DNA from: Candidatus Cloacimonadota bacterium
Lineage (GTDB): Bacteria > Cloacimonadota > Cloacimonadia > Cloacimonadales > JAIOQZ01
NCBI GenBank assembly: GCA_021108395.1
Contig: JAIOQZ010000039.1
Span: 62,001-126,000, forward strand
Length of the DNA stretch: 64,000 bases
Reading direction: 5' to 3'
Below, piece after piece: positions 3,353 to 20,794 of this stretch. A program made the position numbers and the translations under genes. Below the pieces are notes generated by a model. That model was not told the origin of the DNA. It saw only the letters and a program-made list of their open reading frames with translations, and made no database searches. How positions within the stretch are numbered: position 1 is the first letter of the stretch; every line of letters begins with the position of its first letter.

Positions 3353-3471
3353 TTCGCATCCTATGTACAATAGATATTCTTGCGACACAAGGATACGCAG
3401 TATCCGTTAAAGCTTTTTGGTCTTACCTTTTTCTCGAAAAAGGTAAGCGGGGGTAGGAGCAGCGCCCCATC
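3353..3471. repeat. Hairpin-rich intergenic repeat, copy R1
   Basis: First of four related intergenic elements (others at 14183-14304, 20608-20794, 28509-28713). It fills the gap between the convergent metallo-hydrolase and trxB genes. Two perfect hairpins are visible: GGATAC-GCA-GTATCC at 3391-3405 and a 10-bp stem TTACCTTTTT / AAAAAGGTAA with loop CTCG at 3423-3446. Read on the minus strand, 3391-3446 is identical over 56 bases to 20633-20688 in copy R3. The right-hand end (3447-3471) is a decayed version of the terminal arm seen in R3. Function is unknown; placed between convergent genes it could stop transcription from both sides. Confidence 0.8.
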
Positions 3472-12208: not shown

Positions 12209-12619
12209 ATGGAAAAAAATCGCAAAGTCGAACTCTCGACCATTATCGGCAAAGGAAGCCGCATCAATGGTAAGCTCGTCATCAAAGGCGGCATCCGCAT
12301 CGACGGAGAAATCGAAGGCACTATCGAAACCGACGGCTTCGTGCTCATCGGCACGTCGGGAACGGCCAGGGCCAACCTGAAAGCCAAGGAATGTCTCATC
12401 CAGGGCAAGGTGGAGGGCGACCTCTACATCAAAGACCAGCTCGAGCTGGAGAAAACCGCCGTCGTAAACGGCAATATCGTCAGCCGGACATTGCGCATTC
12501 ACGGCGGCGCCAAGCTCAACGGCCGCTGCTCCATGTCCGACAGCCCCAAGATGCCGCAGGACAACGAATTCCAAAAACGCCCCGATGCGCCCGCAAAACC
12601 CGTTCCGACCTTCGAATAA
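12209..12619 (+). CDS. Bactofilin
   Basis: A 136-residue polymer-forming cytoskeletal protein. The core (about 8-110) is a run of short beta-helix turns (KLVIKGGIRIDGEIEGTI, TARANLKAKECLIQGKVEG, KTAVVNGNIVS, GAKLNGRCSM), flanked by disordered ends; the C-terminus is Pro-rich. Bactofilins assemble without nucleotide and scaffold wall enzymes or, in Myxococcus, ParA/ParB positioning. Here the gene follows parA-parB-M23 in the same direction. Its last 35 bases overlap the start of the next gene. Confidence 0.94.
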   Translation: MEKNRKVELSTIIGKGSRINGKLVIKGGIRIDGEIEGTIETDGFVLIGTSGTARANLKAKECLIQGKVEGDLYIKDQLELEKTAVVNGNIVSRTLRIHGGAKLNGRCSMSDSPKMPQDNEFQKRPDAPAKPVPTFE

Positions 12620-12845
12620 CAAGGTTCTGCGCTATCTGGGGCTTTGTGTGCAGCTCGGACTGACCATGGCTGTGAGCGTGCTGGTATGCTTTTACGCAGC
12701 CTGGTTGCTCGAACAGCGATTCTATACTGGCGGCATTCTGCCGGGACTGGGCATTCTGCTTGGTATCGCTGCCGGGGGATGGGCTGCATATCGCACGACA
12801 CTCAAGCTCCTTGCGCACCCAGATGACGACCCGCCGTCGCAGTGA
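12585..12845 (+). CDS. AtpZ/AtpI-like small membrane protein
   Basis: An 86-residue protein with two membrane helices (about 18-38 and 46-67) joined by a short loop containing GGILPGLGILLGIAAGGWAAYR. This pattern and position match the small AtpZ/AtpI family encoded at the head of F-type ATP synthase operons, thought to help c-ring assembly or magnesium/ion handling. The start lies inside the bactofilin gene, and the stop overlaps the next GTG start (GTGA). Family assignment rests on topology and context. Confidence 0.7.
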   Translation: MRPQNPFRPSNNKVLRYLGLCVQLGLTMAVSVLVCFYAAWLLEQRFYTGGILPGLGILLGIAAGGWAAYRTTLKLLAHPDDDPPSQ

Positions 12846-13255
12846 AAATGAGCGCCGCAATGACTACTATCTCACCAAAGACGCTCATCCGGCGTGTTCT
12901 GCTTATTATTTGCTTGACATTACTGCTTTCCGCACTACTTTTACCTCTATATTTCCAATCATCTCTGGGCTTCATGCTTGGGGCGGTTGGCAGTGCTGGA
13001 TGGTTCTTGTGGCTGGCACGTGATATCCGCCTCGGGCTCGGGTTGTCGCACAAAGCGGCGCGTAAACGGGCGCTGGCGGGGCACTATCTGCGTTTCGGGG
13101 CACTGGCGGCATATGGCATGCTGGTGGCATGGCTGGCTCGGCCCGATTTAATCGCGCTGGGCATCGGCCTGCTGATGGCGCAGGTGGCGATGCTCATTGT
13201 CGTATTGCACGACGCCGCTCGGCAAAACAAATACTTTCGAGGACAAGATGGCTAA
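12842..13255 (+). CDS. ATP synthase protein I-like membrane protein
   Basis: A 137-residue protein with four predicted membrane helices (about 18-38, 43-62, 84-102, 106-126), including GFMLGAVGSAGWFLWLARDI, the kind of sequence found in AtpI. AtpI acts as a chaperone for c-ring assembly in several bacteria. Two starts are possible: GTG 12842, overlapping the previous stop as GTGA, or ATG 12848. The stop overlaps the atpB start by 8 bases, so the block 12585-14165 is translationally coupled. Two AtpI/Z-like proteins before atpB may relate to the unusual pair of c subunits downstream (inference). Confidence 0.65.
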   Translation: MKMSAAMTTISPKTLIRRVLLIICLTLLLSALLLPLYFQSSLGFMLGAVGSAGWFLWLARDIRLGLGLSHKAARKRALAGHYLRFGALAAYGMLVAWLARPDLIALGIGLLMAQVAMLIVVLHDAARQNKYFRGQDG

Positions 13256-14165
13256 AGGCAAAGGCGGGATGCTCCGCATTTTCATCGTGTTCCTTATTAT
13301 CGAGGTTGCGCTCGTTATCCTTTCGGGCAACTTCTCACGCCAGATTCAGGTGGTCAACGAAGAGGGTCAGTTCGAGCTGACGCACGCGCCGGTGCACTTC
13401 GATCTTCAGGCCAAGATTTCCGAGGAATTTCAACACGACAAGTATGTCGCCGACGAAGGCCATCCTCTCGAAATCTACGGCAGTGAGGGGCTGTATAACT
13501 TCTTCGCAAAACTGAGCGAGAAATTCACCATCTTTGGCGACCCGACCCCGATAGGAACTTTCCGATTGCTGCGCATGCTGCTCATCGTCGATCTGGTACT
13601 ACTCACCATCGGCTTTCTCGTTTTTCGCGCTTTGAAGACCCGTCCCAGCCAGCCGCAGATTCTCTTCGAGCTTCTCTATTCGATGTTCGACGGCTTCGTC
13701 GAGGAATCGCTGGGGAAGAAGCTGATCAAATTCACGCCATACGTCTTCACCATCTTTCTCTTTCTCATTGTTTGCAACATGATTGGCATGATCCCGATCC
13801 CCGGCTTCATGGAGCCTACACGCAACCTGAACGTGCCGCTGGGGCTCGGCCTCATGGTGGTGTTCGTGGTGCACGTCACGGCCATCGCCGTGAAGGGCCC
13901 TGTGGGCTATCTGAAGGACTATATGACTCCGCTGATGCCGCTGGACGTCATTGGCGAGGCCGCCAAGGGCGTCTCGATCGCTTTCCGTCTCTTCGGCAAC
14001 ATTCTGGGCGGCGCCATCATCATACTCGTCGTCAGTTCACTGGTGAAGTTCGTGCTGTTGCCGATAGGCCTGAATCTCTTTTTCGGCATGTTCGTGGGTG
14101 CGGTGCAGGCATTTGTCTTCACCATGCTCGCTCTCTCATATATCAGCGTCGCTATATCGGACTAA
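13248..14165 (+). CDS. atpB: F-type ATP synthase subunit a
   Basis: The 305-residue stator subunit forming the two ion half-channels of Fo. The essential arginine is in GVSIAFRLFGN (Arg247), and the last helices carry GAVQAFVFTMLALSYISVAI. The ATG at 13248 (MAKGKGGMLRIF) is preceded by GAGGA; a longer reading would begin inside the upstream gene. The N-terminal part is unusually long: a first hydrophobic segment (about 9-27) is followed by some 75 mostly polar residues (about 28-105, EGQFELTHAPVHFDLQAK...FTIFGDPTP) before the conserved helices. E. coli subunit a has 271 residues. Confidence 0.93.
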   Translation: MAKGKGGMLRIFIVFLIIEVALVILSGNFSRQIQVVNEEGQFELTHAPVHFDLQAKISEEFQHDKYVADEGHPLEIYGSEGLYNFFAKLSEKFTIFGDPTPIGTFRLLRMLLIVDLVLLTIGFLVFRALKTRPSQPQILFELLYSMFDGFVEESLGKKLIKFTPYVFTIFLFLIVCNMIGMIPIPGFMEPTRNLNVPLGLGLMVVFVVHVTAIAVKGPVGYLKDYMTPLMPLDVIGEAAKGVSIAFRLFGNILGGAIIILVVSSLVKFVLLPIGLNLFFGMFVGAVQAFVFTMLALSYISVAISD

Positions 14166-14182: not shown

Positions 14183-14304
14183 TTTACCTTTTTCGAGAAA
14201 AAGGTAAAACTAAAAAGCTTTAGCGGATGCTACGCATCCTTTGTGTCACAAGAATATATTTATACAATAGGAAACGCAGTTTCCGTTAAAAGTTTGGCGG
14301 AGTT
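14183..14304. repeat. Hairpin-rich intergenic repeat, copy R2, inside the atp operon
   Basis: This copy occupies the 144-base gap between atpB and the first atpE gene. It shows an 11-bp stem TTTACCTTTTT / AAAAAGGTAAA around CGAG (14183-14208), GGATGC-TAC-GCATCC (14225-14239) and GGAAAC-GCA-GTTTCC (14270-14284), ending in AAAAGTTTGGCGGAGTT, which also supplies the Shine-Dalgarno-like GGCGGAG of the next gene. The order of parts matches R3, but the outer CAGGGGC arms are missing. Because it lies within the operon it could lower, pause or process the transcript between atpB and atpE. Confidence 0.82.
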
Positions 14305-14309
14305 AACGT

Positions 14310-15065
14310 ATGACCATGACAGCGGAAATCATCCAGATTTGCTCGTTTCTGGGCGCGGGTATTGGTGTAGGTATCGCTTCGGTTACTTCTGGAGTGGGCA
14401 CCGGCATCATCGCCGACCAGGCCAATATCGCCCTCATGAAGCAGCCCAAGGCCTATGACAAGCTGTTCAGCACTATGCTCATCGGCCAAGCGGCCACGGG
14501 CACCGGCGGCATATTCTCGCTGGTGGTGGCGTTGCTGCTGCTGTTTGGCGGGTTCGAGCAGGGCGTGGTGCACATCCATCGCGCCGCTGCCATGCTCGCT
14601 GCCGGCCTGGCGGTGGGACTGGGCGCTGTGGGCCCTGCGCTGGGCGCGGGTTACTCTGGCGGCGAGGCCTGCCGCAGCATTGGCCGCATGCCCCGCCAGG
14701 GCAACATCATCATGGGCAACATGCTGATTGGCCAGGCGCTGTCGCAGTCAAGTTCCATCTTCGCGCTTGTGGTGTCGCTGCTGCTCATTTTCAGCACGCC
14801 AATGGCCATCGAAGACCCAACCGCAGCGCGGCTCATTCAGAAGTTCATCGCATACCTCGGCTCTGGACTGGCCATCGGGCTGGGCACTCTCGGCCCTGGC
14901 GCCGGCATCGGCTTCGTGGCCGGCAAGGCCAACGACGCCATTGGCCGCTTCCCCCGTGAACGCGCCAAGGTCATCCGCACAATGTTCCTGGGCGCCGCCG
15001 TCTCCGAATCGACCGCCATCTACGCGCTGGTGGTCTCGTTCCTGTTAATTTTTGCAGTAGGATAA
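14310..15065 (+). CDS. atpE: Triple-hairpin ATP synthase subunit c (only hairpin 3 has the ion-binding Glu)
   Basis: A 251-residue proteolipid made of three fused c-subunit hairpins, six membrane helices in all: about 8-80, 92-162 and 178-250. Each shows the GxGxG-rich first helix, a polar loop (MKQPKA, GRMPRQG, GRFPRER) and a second helix. The carboxylate position of helix 2 is Gly64 in hairpin 1 (QAATGTGGI), Gln146 in hairpin 2 (ALSQSSSI) and Glu233 in hairpin 3 (VSESTAIY). The matching helix-1 positions are Thr31, Ala113 and Ile200, none charged. One ion site per six helices is therefore expected. Multi-hairpin c subunits with fewer carboxylates are known from V/A-type enzymes and from Acetobacterium woodii (a double hairpin in an F-type rotor). 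The ATG at 14310 has GGCGGAG upstream; ATG 14316 is also possible. Confidence 0.92.
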   Translation: MTMTAEIIQICSFLGAGIGVGIASVTSGVGTGIIADQANIALMKQPKAYDKLFSTMLIGQAATGTGGIFSLVVALLLLFGGFEQGVVHIHRAAAMLAAGLAVGLGAVGPALGAGYSGGEACRSIGRMPRQGNIIMGNMLIGQALSQSSSIFALVVSLLLIFSTPMAIEDPTAARLIQKFIAYLGSGLAIGLGTLGPGAGIGFVAGKANDAIGRFPRERAKVIRTMFLGAAVSESTAIYALVVSFLLIFAVG

Positions 15066-15089: not shown

Positions 15090-15365
15090 ATGGAAACCAT
15101 TGACGCAACCGCAATGGAATTGCTGGCAAACGGAATTATGAAGGCTTCCGCCTTTCTCGGCGCCGGCATTTGTATGGGCATTGGCGCCCTCGGACCCGGC
15201 GTGGGTGAAGGATTCGTTGGCGGCAAGGCCTGCGAAGGAATCGCTCGCAGCCCCGAGAACCAGAGCCTGATTATGCGCACCATGCTGGTGGGCCAGGCCG
15301 TGTCGGAATCAACCGGTATCTATTCGCTCGTGATCGCGCTTCTGCTCATCTTCGCCACCGGCTAA
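15090..15365 (+). CDS. atpE: Single-hairpin ATP synthase subunit c with two-carboxylate site
   Basis: A 91-residue c subunit with two membrane helices. Helix 1 holds GPGVGEGFVGGKA with Glu40; helix 2 holds VSESTGIYSLV with Glu73. Compared with the sodium-binding ring of Ilyobacter (Gln32, Val63, Glu65, Ser66, Thr67, Tyr70), the equivalents here are Glu40, Val71, Glu73, Ser74, Thr75 and Tyr78, so all sodium ligands are kept except that Gln is replaced by Glu. A Glu pair 33 residues apart is the two-carboxylate arrangement described for Fusobacterium nucleatum. GGAGG stands before the ATG. It follows the triple-hairpin gene by 24 bases, so both c subunits probably enter the same ring. Confidence 0.94.
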   Translation: METIDATAMELLANGIMKASAFLGAGICMGIGALGPGVGEGFVGGKACEGIARSPENQSLIMRTMLVGQAVSESTGIYSLVIALLLIFATG

Positions 15366-15374
15366 GGAGTTCTT

Positions 15375-15857
15375 ATGATTGGCATTGACTATTCCCTGCT
15401 GATCGTTATCCTGAACTTCGTGGTCTTGTTGATTGTTCTCAACAAGATTCTCTACAAGCCCATAACGAAGTTCCTGCGGGAGCGACAGGCCAAGATCGCT
15501 GACGATATGGACCAGGCAGTCAAGTCTCGCGATGAGGCTGGGCAACTGGTCGAGCAACGCAAGCAGGATTTGAAGGCCTCGACTGAAGAGATGCGTCTGT
15601 TGATGAGTAAAACGAAGCACGAGGCCGAAGATCAGGCAGGCGATATCATCCGTCAGGCTCATGGCCAGCAAAAGAAGATTCTGGCCGAGACCGACGCTCT
15701 GCTCATCACCGAAAAGAAAAAGGCCATGCAAGAACTCGAGAGCCGCGTAGCCAGGCTCATCGCCGATGTCGCCGGCAAGATTATCGCCGACAAGATGGAC
15801 GAGGAAACCGATGCCGCTCTTATCGAGCAACTGTTGAAGGAGCGGGGTGTCTCGTGA
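15375..15857 (+). CDS. atpF: F-type ATP synthase subunit b
   Basis: The 160-residue peripheral-stalk subunit. One membrane helix near the N-terminus (about 6-25, YSLLIVILNFVVLLIVLNKI) is followed by a long, charged helix with the LYKPITKFLRERQAKIADDMDQA start typical of subunit b and a C-terminal delta-binding part. It lacks a paired b' gene, so the stalk should be a b homodimer. The stop overlaps the GTG start of atpH (GTGA). GGAG precedes its ATG. Confidence 0.93.
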   Translation: MIGIDYSLLIVILNFVVLLIVLNKILYKPITKFLRERQAKIADDMDQAVKSRDEAGQLVEQRKQDLKASTEEMRLLMSKTKHEAEDQAGDIIRQAHGQQKKILAETDALLITEKKKAMQELESRVARLIADVAGKIIADKMDEETDAALIEQLLKERGVS

Positions 15858-16390
15858 GAAACCACCTTCTGGCCCTACGTTACTCCAGAGCGTTTATGGA
15901 CTTGGTAAAGCGAGACGACCACCGCGGGCTGCTCGCTGACATCGAGACGGTGCGCCAGATACTGGCCGACAACCCCACCTTCATCAAGGCGGTCCACTCG
16001 GTGGTGCTGCCCAGGCCCAAGCGCCTTGAACTGGGGAGTATGCTTGACGATCATCTTGAATTCCAGCCGCTATGGAGCTCGCTTTTCGAGATTCTGGTGC
16101 ACAAGCACCGCTTCAACATCCTGCCAGCCGTGCTTGAATGCATCGAAGCCGCCATCCACGCCGAAAACGACGAGGTGAAGGTTGAGCTTGTGCTTGCACG
16201 AGACCACAGCGACAACGTCCTGGCTCAGATCAGCCGACTGCTACAGAACATCCTGAAGCACAAGGTGATATTGAGCGCCACCGTCGATCCTTCGCTGATT
16301 GGCGGTTTTACGGCGAGTACGCACTCGATGCTCGTAGATGCGTCGTTGCGCGACAATCTCGAACGGTTCGCCGGCCGAAAGACACAATAA
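15854..16390 (+). CDS. atpH: F-type ATP synthase subunit delta
   Basis: A 178-residue subunit that joins the b stalk to the alpha3beta3 head. The N-terminal helical domain (ALRYSRAFMDLVKRDD...) and the conserved C-terminal strand motif VDPSLIGGFTASTHSMLVDASLRDNLERF are both present. It starts with GTG in a GTGA overlap with atpF and ends 12 bases before atpA. Length matches the family (about 177). Confidence 0.93.
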   Translation: MRNHLLALRYSRAFMDLVKRDDHRGLLADIETVRQILADNPTFIKAVHSVVLPRPKRLELGSMLDDHLEFQPLWSSLFEILVHKHRFNILPAVLECIEAAIHAENDEVKVELVLARDHSDNVLAQISRLLQNILKHKVILSATVDPSLIGGFTASTHSMLVDASLRDNLERFAGRKTQ

Positions 16391-16402: not shown

Positions 16403-17905
16403 ATGAAAATTCAACCGGATGAAATCAGCGCGATTATTCGCGACAAAATCAATCAATTCAAATTTGACATCGACATCGCCGAGACCGGCAAGGTGGTGCA
16501 GGTGGGTGACGGCATCGCCCGCATCTATGGCATGGATGAAGTCATGTCGGGCGAGATGGTGCTCTTTCCTGGCGACATCTATGGCATGGCGCTCAACCTT
16601 GATGAAGACAATGTCGGTTGCATCGTCTTTGGCGATACGCGCTACATTAAAGAAGGCGACGTTGTGCGCCGCACCAAGCGTATCCTCGAAATACCGGTGG
16701 GCGAGGCAATGCTGGGCCGCGTGGTGAACGCCCTGGGCCAGCCGCTGGACGGCAAGGGCGAGATCAAGGCCGAGAAGAACATGCCCATCGAGCGCAAGGC
16801 GCTGGGCGTCATCCAGCGGCAGCCCGTCAAGGAACCGCTGCAAACCGGCCTCAAAGCCATCGACTCGATGATTCCTATTGGCCGCGGCCAGCGCGAACTC
16901 ATCATTGGCGACCGCCAGACAGGCAAAACCGCCATCGCCGTCGATACTATTATCAACCAGAAGGGTAACGACGTTCTCTGCATCTATGTGGCCATCGGCC
17001 AGAAGAAATCGTCGGTTGCCAAGCTCGTGCAAACGCTCGAAGAGCACGGGGCGATGGAATACACCGTCATCGTCTCGGCCACTGCCGCCGAACCCGCCGC
17101 CCTGCAGTATCTGGCGCCATATGCCGGCTGCACCCTGGGCGAGTTCTTCCGCGACAATGGCAAGCATGCGCTCATCGTTTATGACGATCTTTCCAAGCAC
17201 GCTGTAAGCTATCGCCAGATTTCGCTGTTGCTGCGTCGTCCTCCAGGACGCGAAGCGTATCCCGGCGACGTGTTTTATTTGCATTCCCGCCTGCTGGAAC
17301 GCGCCAGCAAGCTCAATGACGAGCTCGGCGGCGGCTCGCTCACGGCGCTGCCCATCATCGAGACGCAGGCCGACGACATCACCGCATACATCCCCACCAA
17401 TGTAATCTCGATTACCGACGGCCAGATATTCTTGTCGAACAACCTGTTTTACAGCGGTGTTCGCCCGGCCATCAACGCCGGTATATCTGTTTCCCGCGTG
17501 GGCGGCAGCGCCCAGGTGAAAGCCATGCGCGGCGTGGTGGGGCAGCTCCGCCTCGACCTCGCGCAATACCGTGAGATGGAGGCCTTCGCCAAGTTCGGCT
17601 CCGACCTCGACAAGGTTACGCAGCAGCAGCTTCGTCGCGGCGAACGCCTGGTGGAAATCCTCAAGCAGGATCAATATTCTCCGCTGCCGGTGCACAAGCA
17701 GGTCTTCATTATCTTCATGGGCAACCAGGGCTATCTGGACGAAATCCCCGTCAACAAGGTGAAGGACGTCGAGCGCGACCTCTATGTGATGCTTGACACC
17801 GAGCACAAAGACTTCTGCCAGCAACTTGTGAAAGACAAGCTCACCGATGAAGCAAAAGAAAAGATGCACGAAATCTGCAAGAACGTCGTGGCCAAGTTCA
17901 CTTAA
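16403..17905 (+). CDS. atpA: F-type ATP synthase subunit alpha
   Basis: A 500-residue non-catalytic nucleotide-binding subunit of F1. The P-loop [11 protein letters not shown], the [20 protein letters not shown] block and the [15 protein letters not shown] signature (here [13 protein letters not shown]) are intact. The N-terminal delta-contact helix [16 protein letters not shown] is also present. AGAGGA lies 9 bases before the ATG. The order atpFHAGDC is canonical. A long open frame on the opposite strand over this gene is only a codon-bias shadow. Confidence 0.97.
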
Positions 17906-17919
17906 ACAGGCGGGATCGA

Positions 17920-18771
17920 ATGGCTATACGAGACATCAAGATACGCATCGACAGCGTCAAGAACACGCGGCAGATTACCAACGCCATGAAGATGGTGGCG
18001 GCCTCGCACCTGCGCCGTGCGCAGACGCGCATACTTGCCGCCAGGCCATACGCCAACCATTTGGACACTATGCTGCGCACATTGAAGAAAAAAAACGTGG
18101 CTTCCCGCCATATCCTGCTGGACGACACTCCCCGCAAAGGGAAAGAGCTTCTGGTGGTGGTCACCGCCGACCGTGGCCTGTGCGGCTCGTTCAACACCGG
18201 CATCATCCGCCGCGCTCTCAGCTTCATCCAGGAGAACCCGAATACCGACATCGTCTGTGTGGGGCGCAAAGGCTATGACTCACTGAGGAAACGCACCGAC
18301 CGCGTTATCGAACATTATGTCGGTATCTTCAACGATATGGAGTTCTTCCGTTCCCGCGATGTGGCCGACCACGTTCTCGACCTCTACCTGCACCACGACT
18401 ATGCAAGGATAAAGGTGCTGTACAACGAGTTCAAGTCGGCTATTCAGCAAAACATAATCATCAAAACCGTGCTGCCGGTGCAGCCTCTCGAATCGGACAT
18501 CGTCTCGTCCATCGATTACATCTACGAGCCGGACGAAGACACCGTTATCGAGGAGCTGGGCTGCAAGGTGATGCATGTGGACATGTGGCGCATCATGCTC
18601 GAAAGCTCGGCTGCCGAGCAGGGCGCCCGCATGACGGCGATGGACAGCGCCACAGACAACGCCACCGAGATGATTGGCGCGCTAACGCTTCAGTTCAACC
18701 GCGAGCGTCAGGCCGCCATCACCACGGAAATTATCGAGATCGCTTCCGGCGCAGACGCGATTAATCAATAG
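17920..18771 (+). CDS. atpG: F-type ATP synthase subunit gamma
   Basis: The 283-residue central rotor shaft. The N-terminal helix IRDIKIRIDSVKNTRQITNAMKMVAA and the C-terminal helix AEQGARMTAMDSATDNATEMIGALTLQFNRERQAAITTEI are the two conserved coiled-coil strands. The internal domain has TADRGLCGSFN. Length matches the family (about 287). No redox-regulatory insert of the chloroplast type is visible. Confidence 0.96.
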   Translation: MAIRDIKIRIDSVKNTRQITNAMKMVAASHLRRAQTRILAARPYANHLDTMLRTLKKKNVASRHILLDDTPRKGKELLVVVTADRGLCGSFNTGIIRRALSFIQENPNTDIVCVGRKGYDSLRKRTDRVIEHYVGIFNDMEFFRSRDVADHVLDLYLHHDYARIKVLYNEFKSAIQQNIIIKTVLPVQPLESDIVSSIDYIYEPDEDTVIEELGCKVMHVDMWRIMLESSAAEQGARMTAMDSATDNATEMIGALTLQFNRERQAAITTEIIEIASGADAINQ

Positions 18772-18776
18772 CATAA

Positions 18777-20194
<1,418 letters not shown>

Positions 20195-20195
<1 letters not shown>

Positions 20196-20605
20196 TGAGC
20201 AAAATCAAGCTGGAAGTGAGGAAGCCGGAGGGCCAGGTGGTCAAGGCCGAATTCGACCAGGTGATTGTGCCCGGTATCGAAGGTGACTTCGGCGTTTTAC
20301 CGGGCCACACGCCCTTCATAACACGGCTGCGGCCTGGCATCCTCACCTGCATCGACAACACAGTCGAGACACGCTGGGCCATCCACGACGGTTTTGTAAC
20401 GGTCGAAGCGGACATGGTGCTCATTGCCTGCGAGATTGCCGAGAAGTCTGACGACATCGATGCCGAACGCGCCCGCGAAGCACATAAACGCGCCGAAAAA
20501 CGCCTGCGCGTAAAGCAAGACGACACCGACTTCCGTCGCGCCGAGATGGCGCTGCACCGCGCTGTTGCCCGCCTCGGCTCCCTGAAAAGCGACTCTGAAT
20601 TATAA
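20195..20605 (+). CDS. atpC: F-type ATP synthase subunit epsilon
   Basis: A 136-residue central-stalk subunit. The N-terminal beta-sandwich (VRKPEGQVVKAEFDQVIVPGIEGDFGVLPGHTPFITRLRPG) is well conserved; the C-terminal part has the two-helix domain (DIDAERAREAHKRAEKRLRV...) that can inhibit rotation. The ATG at 20195 overlaps the atpD stop (TAATG). It is the last gene of the atp operon and is followed at once by repeat R3. Confidence 0.92.
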
Positions 20606-20607
20606 GA

Positions 20608-20794
20608 CAGGGGCATTGCCCCTGAACCCCACTTACCTTTTTCGAGAAAAAGGTAAGACCAAAAAGCTTTAACGGATACTGCGTATCCTGTGCACAAGAA
20701 TTTCCTTTTGTACATAGGAAACGAAGTTTCCGCAAGAGTTTTTGATCCAAACTTTTTGCAAAAAGTTTGGTGGAGTTCAGGGGCAAAGCCCCTG
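20608..20794. repeat. Hairpin-rich intergenic repeat, copy R3 (most complete copy)
   Basis: A 187-bp element between atpC (plus) and manC (minus). Its two ends are inverted repeats of about 25 bp, each itself a hairpin: CAGGGGC-ATT-GCCCCTG at 20608-20624 and CAGGGGC-AAA-GCCCCTG at 20778-20794. Inside are, in order, TTACCTTTTT / AAAAAGGTAA (20633-20656), GGATAC-TGC-GTATCC (20674-20688), GGAAAC-GAA-GTTTCC (20717-20731) and an 11-bp stem CCAAACTTTTT / AAAAAGTTTGG (20747-20770). The terminal inverted repeats suggest a small non-autonomous transposable element. The last 18 bases overlap the end of manC and encode its stop codon. Confidence 0.88.

Follow-up and report, generated by a model that had tools for sequence, protein, structure and literature searches.

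Background

The closest described relatives of the system reported here are the hybrid rotors of Acetobacterium woodii and Clostridium aceticum, in which a double-hairpin c subunit, c1, is combined with the single-hairpin subunits c2 and c3 in the F-type Na+ enzyme of an anaerobe (PMC7911925). In the A. woodii c-ring structure (PDB: 4BEM) nine c2 chains are accompanied by one c1 chain. Here we analyze a c subunit with three fused hairpins (hereafter the triple), encoded on the forward strand at positions 14310-15065 of a 64,000-nucleotide stretch of a Candidatus Cloacimonadota genome (contig JAIOQZ010000039.1, positions 62,001 to 126,000; the whole stretch is termed the window). Like the A. 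woodii and C. aceticum forms, it is a fused c subunit encoded in an F-type operon beside an ordinary c, and carries Gln in place of the carboxylate in one hairpin; among solved proteins A. woodii c1 is also its closest relative in sequence and fold. The two nevertheless differ in the number of hairpins (two in c1, three in the triple), in the presence in the triple of up to two or three consecutive positions without a carboxylate, and in the location of the surviving site, which lies in a last hairpin devoid of Gln32 in the clade that includes the window, as against a first hairpin with Gln in A. woodii c1. Moreover, the Cloacimonadota form is phylum-wide, ancestral, and of separate origin.

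Larger fusions are known from the A/V-type enzymes, namely the triple-hairpin proteolipid of Methanocaldococcus jannaschii and the version with 13 hairpins in Methanopyrus kandleri (PMC2359735). The former shares with our protein the presence of three hairpins in one proteolipid, but belongs to an archaeal A/V-type enzyme, whereas the Cloacimonadota triple is found in an F-type operon and groups with the adjacent F-type c. The V/A-type K subunits, such as NtpK of Enterococcus hirae and the eukaryotic c, similarly transport one ion per several hairpins as a result of carboxylate loss; however, they form homomeric rings of a non-F-type enzyme, and V-type hairpins fall far outside in our tree.

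In the Na+ rings of Ilyobacter tartaricus and E. hirae a Ser/Thr ligand serves the site of the neighboring hairpin, and the ion is bound by Gln32 and Glu65 from a given hairpin together with Ser66 and the Val63 carbonyl of the neighbor; in E. hirae the donor residues are Leu61 and Thr64 (PMC2359735). The ring of Fusobacterium nucleatum, a homomeric c11, typifies a two-carboxylate Na+ motif, and the Na+ F-type rings characterized by 2013 had 11 hairpins (PMC3692424). Duplicated c subunits were proposed to alter the ion/ATP ratio as early as 1990 (Cross and Taiz, cited in PMC2359735). Full-text literature searches recovered no published F-type triple-hairpin c, in agreement with an earlier note on this DNA, whose author knew of no described F-type case of exactly this form, though a 2015 review of hybrid rotors or the 2014 A. 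woodii structure paper may mention one. The ProAD resource groups c subunits by hairpin number, with no reference to Cloacimonadota in the main text (PMC11738941), while a study of Antarctic Cloacimonadota assumed a Na+-dependent F-type enzyme and left its c subunits uncommented (PMC8542988).

Structure of the triple-hairpin subunit

The triple is specified by a single unbroken open reading frame with an ATG start and a length of 251 residues, in which three c-subunit repeats align in register with each other, as the earlier note had asked to see established, and with the one-hairpin c encoded immediately downstream. The Pfam profile PF00137 (ATP-synt_C) matches it in three separate stretches with a total of 140 bits (E-value 2.7e-41), and the hairpins scored singly yield 60, 53 and 50 bits. 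The structure predicted by AlphaFold2 from an alignment of 42 relatives (mean pLDDT 93.2, pTM 0.88) is entirely helical with breaks between the three hairpins, and its top structural match is the c1 chain of A. woodii (4BEM_J, E-value 3e-8). The identity of the protein as three c hairpins is far beyond chance. These results, along with the F-type operon, bear out the note's claim of three c hairpins fused in one F-type proteolipid, and the carboxylate positions that it named as Gly64, Gln146 and Glu233 can be read directly from the codons. The relevant features are as follows, with residue counts from 59 aligned copies:

14310..15065, +, triple-hairpin c subunit (open reading frame; three PF00137 matches; AlphaFold2 model; order-wide conservation)
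Hairpin 1, approximately residues 8-80; hairpin 2, approximately 90-162; hairpin 3, approximately 177-249
14499..14501, +, hairpin-1 carboxylate position, GGC, Gly64 (Glu 34, Gln 23, Gly 2)
14745..14747, +, hairpin-2 carboxylate position, CAG, Gln146 (Gln 53/59, Glu 6/59)
15006..15008, +, hairpin-3 carboxylate position, GAA, Glu233 (Glu 51/59, Gln 8/59)

Phyletic distribution and origin of the fusion

Among 40 relatives from the same order, the families bearing an F-type enzyme possess a frame of approximately 240-281 residues with three matches along with a short c, and a phylum-wide search recovered the same fusion in the sister lineages f12 and f13 of the same class. Family f10 (Cloacimonadaceae-like) is devoid of the triple and contains only a double hairpin of approximately 160-183 residues that is V/A-type by sequence; the triple and the F-type enzyme are absent together. 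The sequences place the fusion and its position beside c throughout the phylum, including the sister order, with f10 alone lacking the fusion. About 80 copies, 60 of them distinct, were fetched, which provides the listing of three-hairpin relatives that the earlier note had called for and shows the fusion to be conserved. The family of the window has one other member (L029), which is identical to L059, a locus from a metagenome-assembled Cloacimonadota genome. A scan of contigs with an alignment of hairpins 2 and 3 detected 58 Cloacimonadota-type loci with the triple, and beyond these only ordinary c; the scan depends on two short peptide patterns, which distant triples could escape; an initial contig scan with one query sequence gave no matches. 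Nearly all loci of sufficient length display the gene order I-a-triple-c-b-delta-alpha-gamma-beta.

Several loci deviate from the general pattern. The V/A-type double-hairpin K that family f10 (L030-L033 and the genomes of the family) possesses instead of the F-type triple shows that one rotary enzyme has been exchanged for another within the phylum. One locus of this family (L141, genome G071) has the order beta ... a-c-b-alpha with a single c and is similar to an N-type ATPase cluster, which would be an additional rotary enzyme of that genome. In family f12 (L140/L089) the alpha gene directly follows the triple and a single c ends another contig (L138), so that c-b-delta may have moved. One of the 58 loci (L075), on a contig labeled as Armatimonadetes, carries a Cloacimonadota-type operon with a triple that groups inside Cloacimonadota, and its label or bin is probably wrong.

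In trees of the separated hairpins, hairpins 1, 2 and 3 each form one group and are joined with the neighboring c in a single clade (support 100/100 in one tree and 98/98 in the other), which lies apart from V-type hairpins and, in the second tree, from other F-type c. This grouping indicates that the triple is phylogenetically F-type rather than V/A-type, and that the fusion arose out of the F-type c native to this lineage, ahead of the radiation of the phylum. The c1a, c1b and c2 hairpins of A. woodii form their own clade (95/83), and a topology forcing common descent of the triple with A. woodii c1 is rejected (p-AU 0.0127). These trees are built on only 73 columns with few outgroups, and Protein Data Bank alignments supplied the sequences of A. 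woodii, F. nucleatum and I. tartaricus. On this phylogenetic evidence, the fusion is ancient and arose independently of A. woodii c1.

Variation of ion sites and selection on the hairpins

The carboxylates at the three site positions vary on this constant architecture. Designating each triple by its residues in hairpins 1 to 3, the 60 distinct copies comprise EQE (22), QQE (21), EQQ (6), EEE (6), GQE (2), QQQ (2) and QQS (1), of which GQE is the lineage of the window and QQS comes from a doubtful locus with a damaged-looking frame. The predicted number of sites accordingly spans zero to three, and the single site of the window does not typify the family. In the two lineages with QQQ (L023/L081 and L041), which display the most extreme site loss, the gene is intact.

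The combinations of Glu32-type and Glu65-type residues in hairpin 1 are EE (28), SQ (24), VE (6) and TG (2), that is to say, its two carboxylates vanish in concert, with the VE copies likely to be intermediates. The triple tree was computed with the site columns left out, and is a quick tree with moderate support at depth. On it, the carboxylate of hairpin 1 was lost a single time, within a 25-row clade that includes the window and unites the QQE/GQE forms with two QQQ descendants; such a clade, with the site in hairpin 3 only, had been named in advance as support for the form. Given this single event, an independent-pairs test of the co-loss of Glu32 and Glu65 is powerless. Glu233 of hairpin 3, in contrast to the single loss in hairpin 1, disappeared in about five separate events.

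Despite these losses, comparison of closely related pairs, one hairpin at a time, yields ratios of nonsynonymous to synonymous substitution rates (dN/dS) of mostly 0.01-0.1, also in hairpins without a carboxylate; strong purifying selection thus acts on every hairpin of the triple. The cytoplasmic-loop motifs are likewise retained, with QP in hairpin 1 and RxP in hairpin 2 of all 59 copies and [RK]xP in hairpin 3 of most. In hairpin 3, Ser234, Thr235 and Tyr238 are invariant (59/59), even in the 8 rows that have lost Glu233, and Val occupies position 231 in 58/59 rows. Its position 32 (Ile200 in the window) is Ile in 56/59 and Val in 3/59, and hence deviates from the two-carboxylate set. Hairpin 2 has Leu144 and, at position 147, mostly Thr (Thr/Ser); these residues of the hairpin preceding Glu233 resemble the E. 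hirae donors Leu61/Thr64. In the E. hirae ring these donors belong to the hairpin that comes before the site.

The adjacent Cloacimonadota single c has the same Glu32/Glu65/Ser66/Thr67/Tyr70 constellation as the F. nucleatum Na+ ring, and its Glu32/Glu65 pair is also present in the first hairpin of roughly half the triples. In a count of 76 single c sequences, which includes some genomes twice, Glu65, Ser66, Thr67 and Tyr70 are present in 76/76 and position 32 is Glu in 72/76 and Gln in 4/76. Na+ coupling is suggested by this F. nucleatum-type motif.

Operon and genomic context

The triple lies in a complete F-type operon with the order AtpZ-like, AtpI-like, a, triple, c, b, delta, alpha, gamma, beta, epsilon:

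12585..12845, +, AtpZ-like small membrane protein (PF09527)
12842..13255, +, AtpI-like protein (weak PF03899 match, under the cut-off of that profile)
13248..14165, +, subunit a (PF00119; gene order conserved)
14184..14295, +, inserted copy of a structured, dispersed repeat that separates the a gene from the triple
15090..15365, +, one-hairpin c subunit of 91 residues (two-carboxylate Na+ motif: Glu40, Glu73, Ser74, Thr75, Tyr78; strong Shine-Dalgarno)
15375..15857, +, subunit b (PF00430)
15854..16390, +, subunit delta (PF00213)
16403..17905, +, subunit alpha (open reading frame; PF00006 at that place)
17920..18771, +, subunit gamma (read from its sequence and conserved place)
18801..20195, +, subunit beta (open reading frame; PF00006 at that place)
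20195..20605, +, subunit epsilon (PF02823 and PF00401)

The window belongs to contig 3 of its genome. All four PF00137 matches of this genome, which is 2.89 Mb in size and 98% complete, fall in this operon; the PF00137 search of the 98%-complete genome found no other c-type subunit, and a second rotary ATPase is ruled out as every match lies within the one operon. It is hence the sole rotary enzyme of the window genome. The genome also encodes a protein of the NqrB/RnfD family.

Median Shine-Dalgarno duplex energies are -9.3 kcal/mol for c, -6.1 for the triple, -5.6 for a and -6.4 for b. The gap between a and the triple is 144 bp in the window, as opposed to a median of 4 nt in relatives, and the repeat inserted there may change how the triple is coupled to a in the window species. 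This repeat, approximately 115 bp long, strongly folding (z -3.8) and REP/MITE-like, occurs at dozens of places in the genome with about 70-96% identity, with further copies within the window at 20633-20741 (+) and 3359-3446 (-).

A probable hybrid rotor and its alternatives

We consider it quite likely that the triple is part of a hybrid F-type Na+ rotor, in which each ring contains approximately one triple and many single c subunits, and fewer ions are transported per turn. In favor of this are the status of the operon as sole rotary enzyme of the genome, the conserved order a-triple-c-b, the joint absence of triple and F-type enzyme in family f10, the low dN/dS and retained loop motifs of the hairpins, the coherent site loss in hairpin 1, and the precedent of the A. 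woodii ring with its fused c1. Under this proposal, about one triple would be built into each ring, and hairpins with a neutral Gln or Gly in place of the carboxylate would pass the stator carrying no ion. The rotor of the window species would then possess an arc with two such dead positions, in which Glu233 carries an ion, and would move fewer ions per turn than it has hairpins. The outer helix of hairpin 3 would serve the site of the next c even when devoid of its own Glu; given that the Ser/Thr ligand of Na+ rings serves the neighboring hairpin, the retention of Ser, Thr and Tyr in hairpin 3 fits an arrangement in which it abuts a single c. More speculatively, Gln146 of hairpin 2 may stand in for the missing Gln/Glu of the hairpin-3 site. 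The strongest Shine-Dalgarno at c, taken together with a triple that begins a median of 4 nt after a, is consistent with an enzyme that contains one triple and many c. The invariant site of the single c encoded beside the triple suggests that the rotor as a whole is probably mostly ordinary. Thus, the transport of one ion per six helices envisaged in the earlier note may hold for the triple's own arc but probably not for the whole rotor, as c subunits with complete sites are encoded alongside; that note identified the triple correctly but did not describe the one-hairpin c at 15090-15365, which is perhaps its "other subunit".

We infer from these features incorporation of the triple into the ring at low copy number, Na+ as the coupling ion, and a lowered ion/ATP ratio. 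As an illustration, a ring of 11 hairpins (one triple and eight c) would, in each turn, transport 9 ions in the window species (ion/ATP 3.0), 10 with EQE (3.3), 11 with EEE (3.7) and 8 with QQQ (2.7). The ion-to-ATP ratio is normally altered via ring size. We would give roughly even chances to the stronger proposition that an obligatory, phylum-wide arc has two (window) or three (QQQ) consecutive dead positions, with sites approximately 98-131 degrees apart in an 11-hairpin ring, and that the number of ions per turn is evolutionarily tuned by switching the sites of one subunit while ring size stays unchanged.

Certain observations weigh against the hybrid rotor. Shine-Dalgarno strength and closeness to a, from which the copy number is deduced, are weak proxies. 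Hairpin 3 has Ile200 in place of the Gln/Glu32 ligand, and may bind Na+ poorly or differently, or bind a proton. The retention of Ser, Thr and Tyr in this hairpin could partly reflect recent losses of Glu233, although the branches of L028 and L089 are long. Finally, we know of no characterized precedent for two or three dead hairpins running past the stator, and consecutive dead hairpins facing it could stall or leak.

Of the alternatives, a role as an assembly or ring-sizing scaffold, which templates oligomerization of c and afterwards either stays outside the ring or remains in it as an inert seam, survives best but is unlikely. Its appeal lies in the dispensability of the sites (zero to three) in a strongly selected fold, the proximity of the triple's start to the end of the a gene in relatives, and the presence in the operon of AtpI-like proteins, which assist ring assembly elsewhere. 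However, the triple retains glycine-rich inner helices and loop motifs as in ring subunits, has the hairpin-3 carboxylate in 51/59 copies, and matches in its fold a known ring member, A. woodii c1; an inert seam within the ring would in any case be compatible with the hybrid rotor.

A ring composed solely of triples, for example four of them, with the single c being minor or conditional and one ion being moved per six helices rotor-wide, is still less probable. Homomeric multi-hairpin rings do exist in V/A-type enzymes, and four triples would provide 12 hairpins, a plausible size, but in the QQQ lineages (L023/L081, L041) such a ring would be devoid of any ion site, and four ions per three ATP would, by our estimate, need a gradient of several hundred mV. 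The presence beside the triple of an ordinary one-hairpin c gene, whose ion site is invariant and whose Shine-Dalgarno exceeds in strength those of the other three genes tested, likewise argues that the ring is probably not of the triple alone.

Decay of a functionless paralog, to which the repeated loss of carboxylates might point, is very improbable and is rejected by the selection analysis, as dN/dS is low in each hairpin, the frame is open and of stable length in practically all copies, and its position is conserved. The chance that tandem c genes were misassembled into one frame is negligible, given that nothing was found in favor of it, that the same frame recurs in independent assemblies across the F-type-bearing families, which also disposes of the separate genes in close relatives contemplated in the earlier note, and that each hairpin is orthologous between species.

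Implications

The triple appears to be a variant of the hybrid F-type rotor that might work in a manner similar to that of A. woodii while differing from it in descent and form. The known F-type examples of such duplication that our searches recovered, in A. woodii and C. aceticum, have a c1 with two hairpins; here three hairpins are fused, across a whole phylum and independently. The triple raises the question of how a rotor passes over an arc that has no ion sites. Living Cloacimonadota present a natural series of zero, one, two and three sites on one architecture, by which the hypothesis of an altered gear ratio can be tested through comparison, and one and the same motor may operate with differing numbers of ions per turn in related species.
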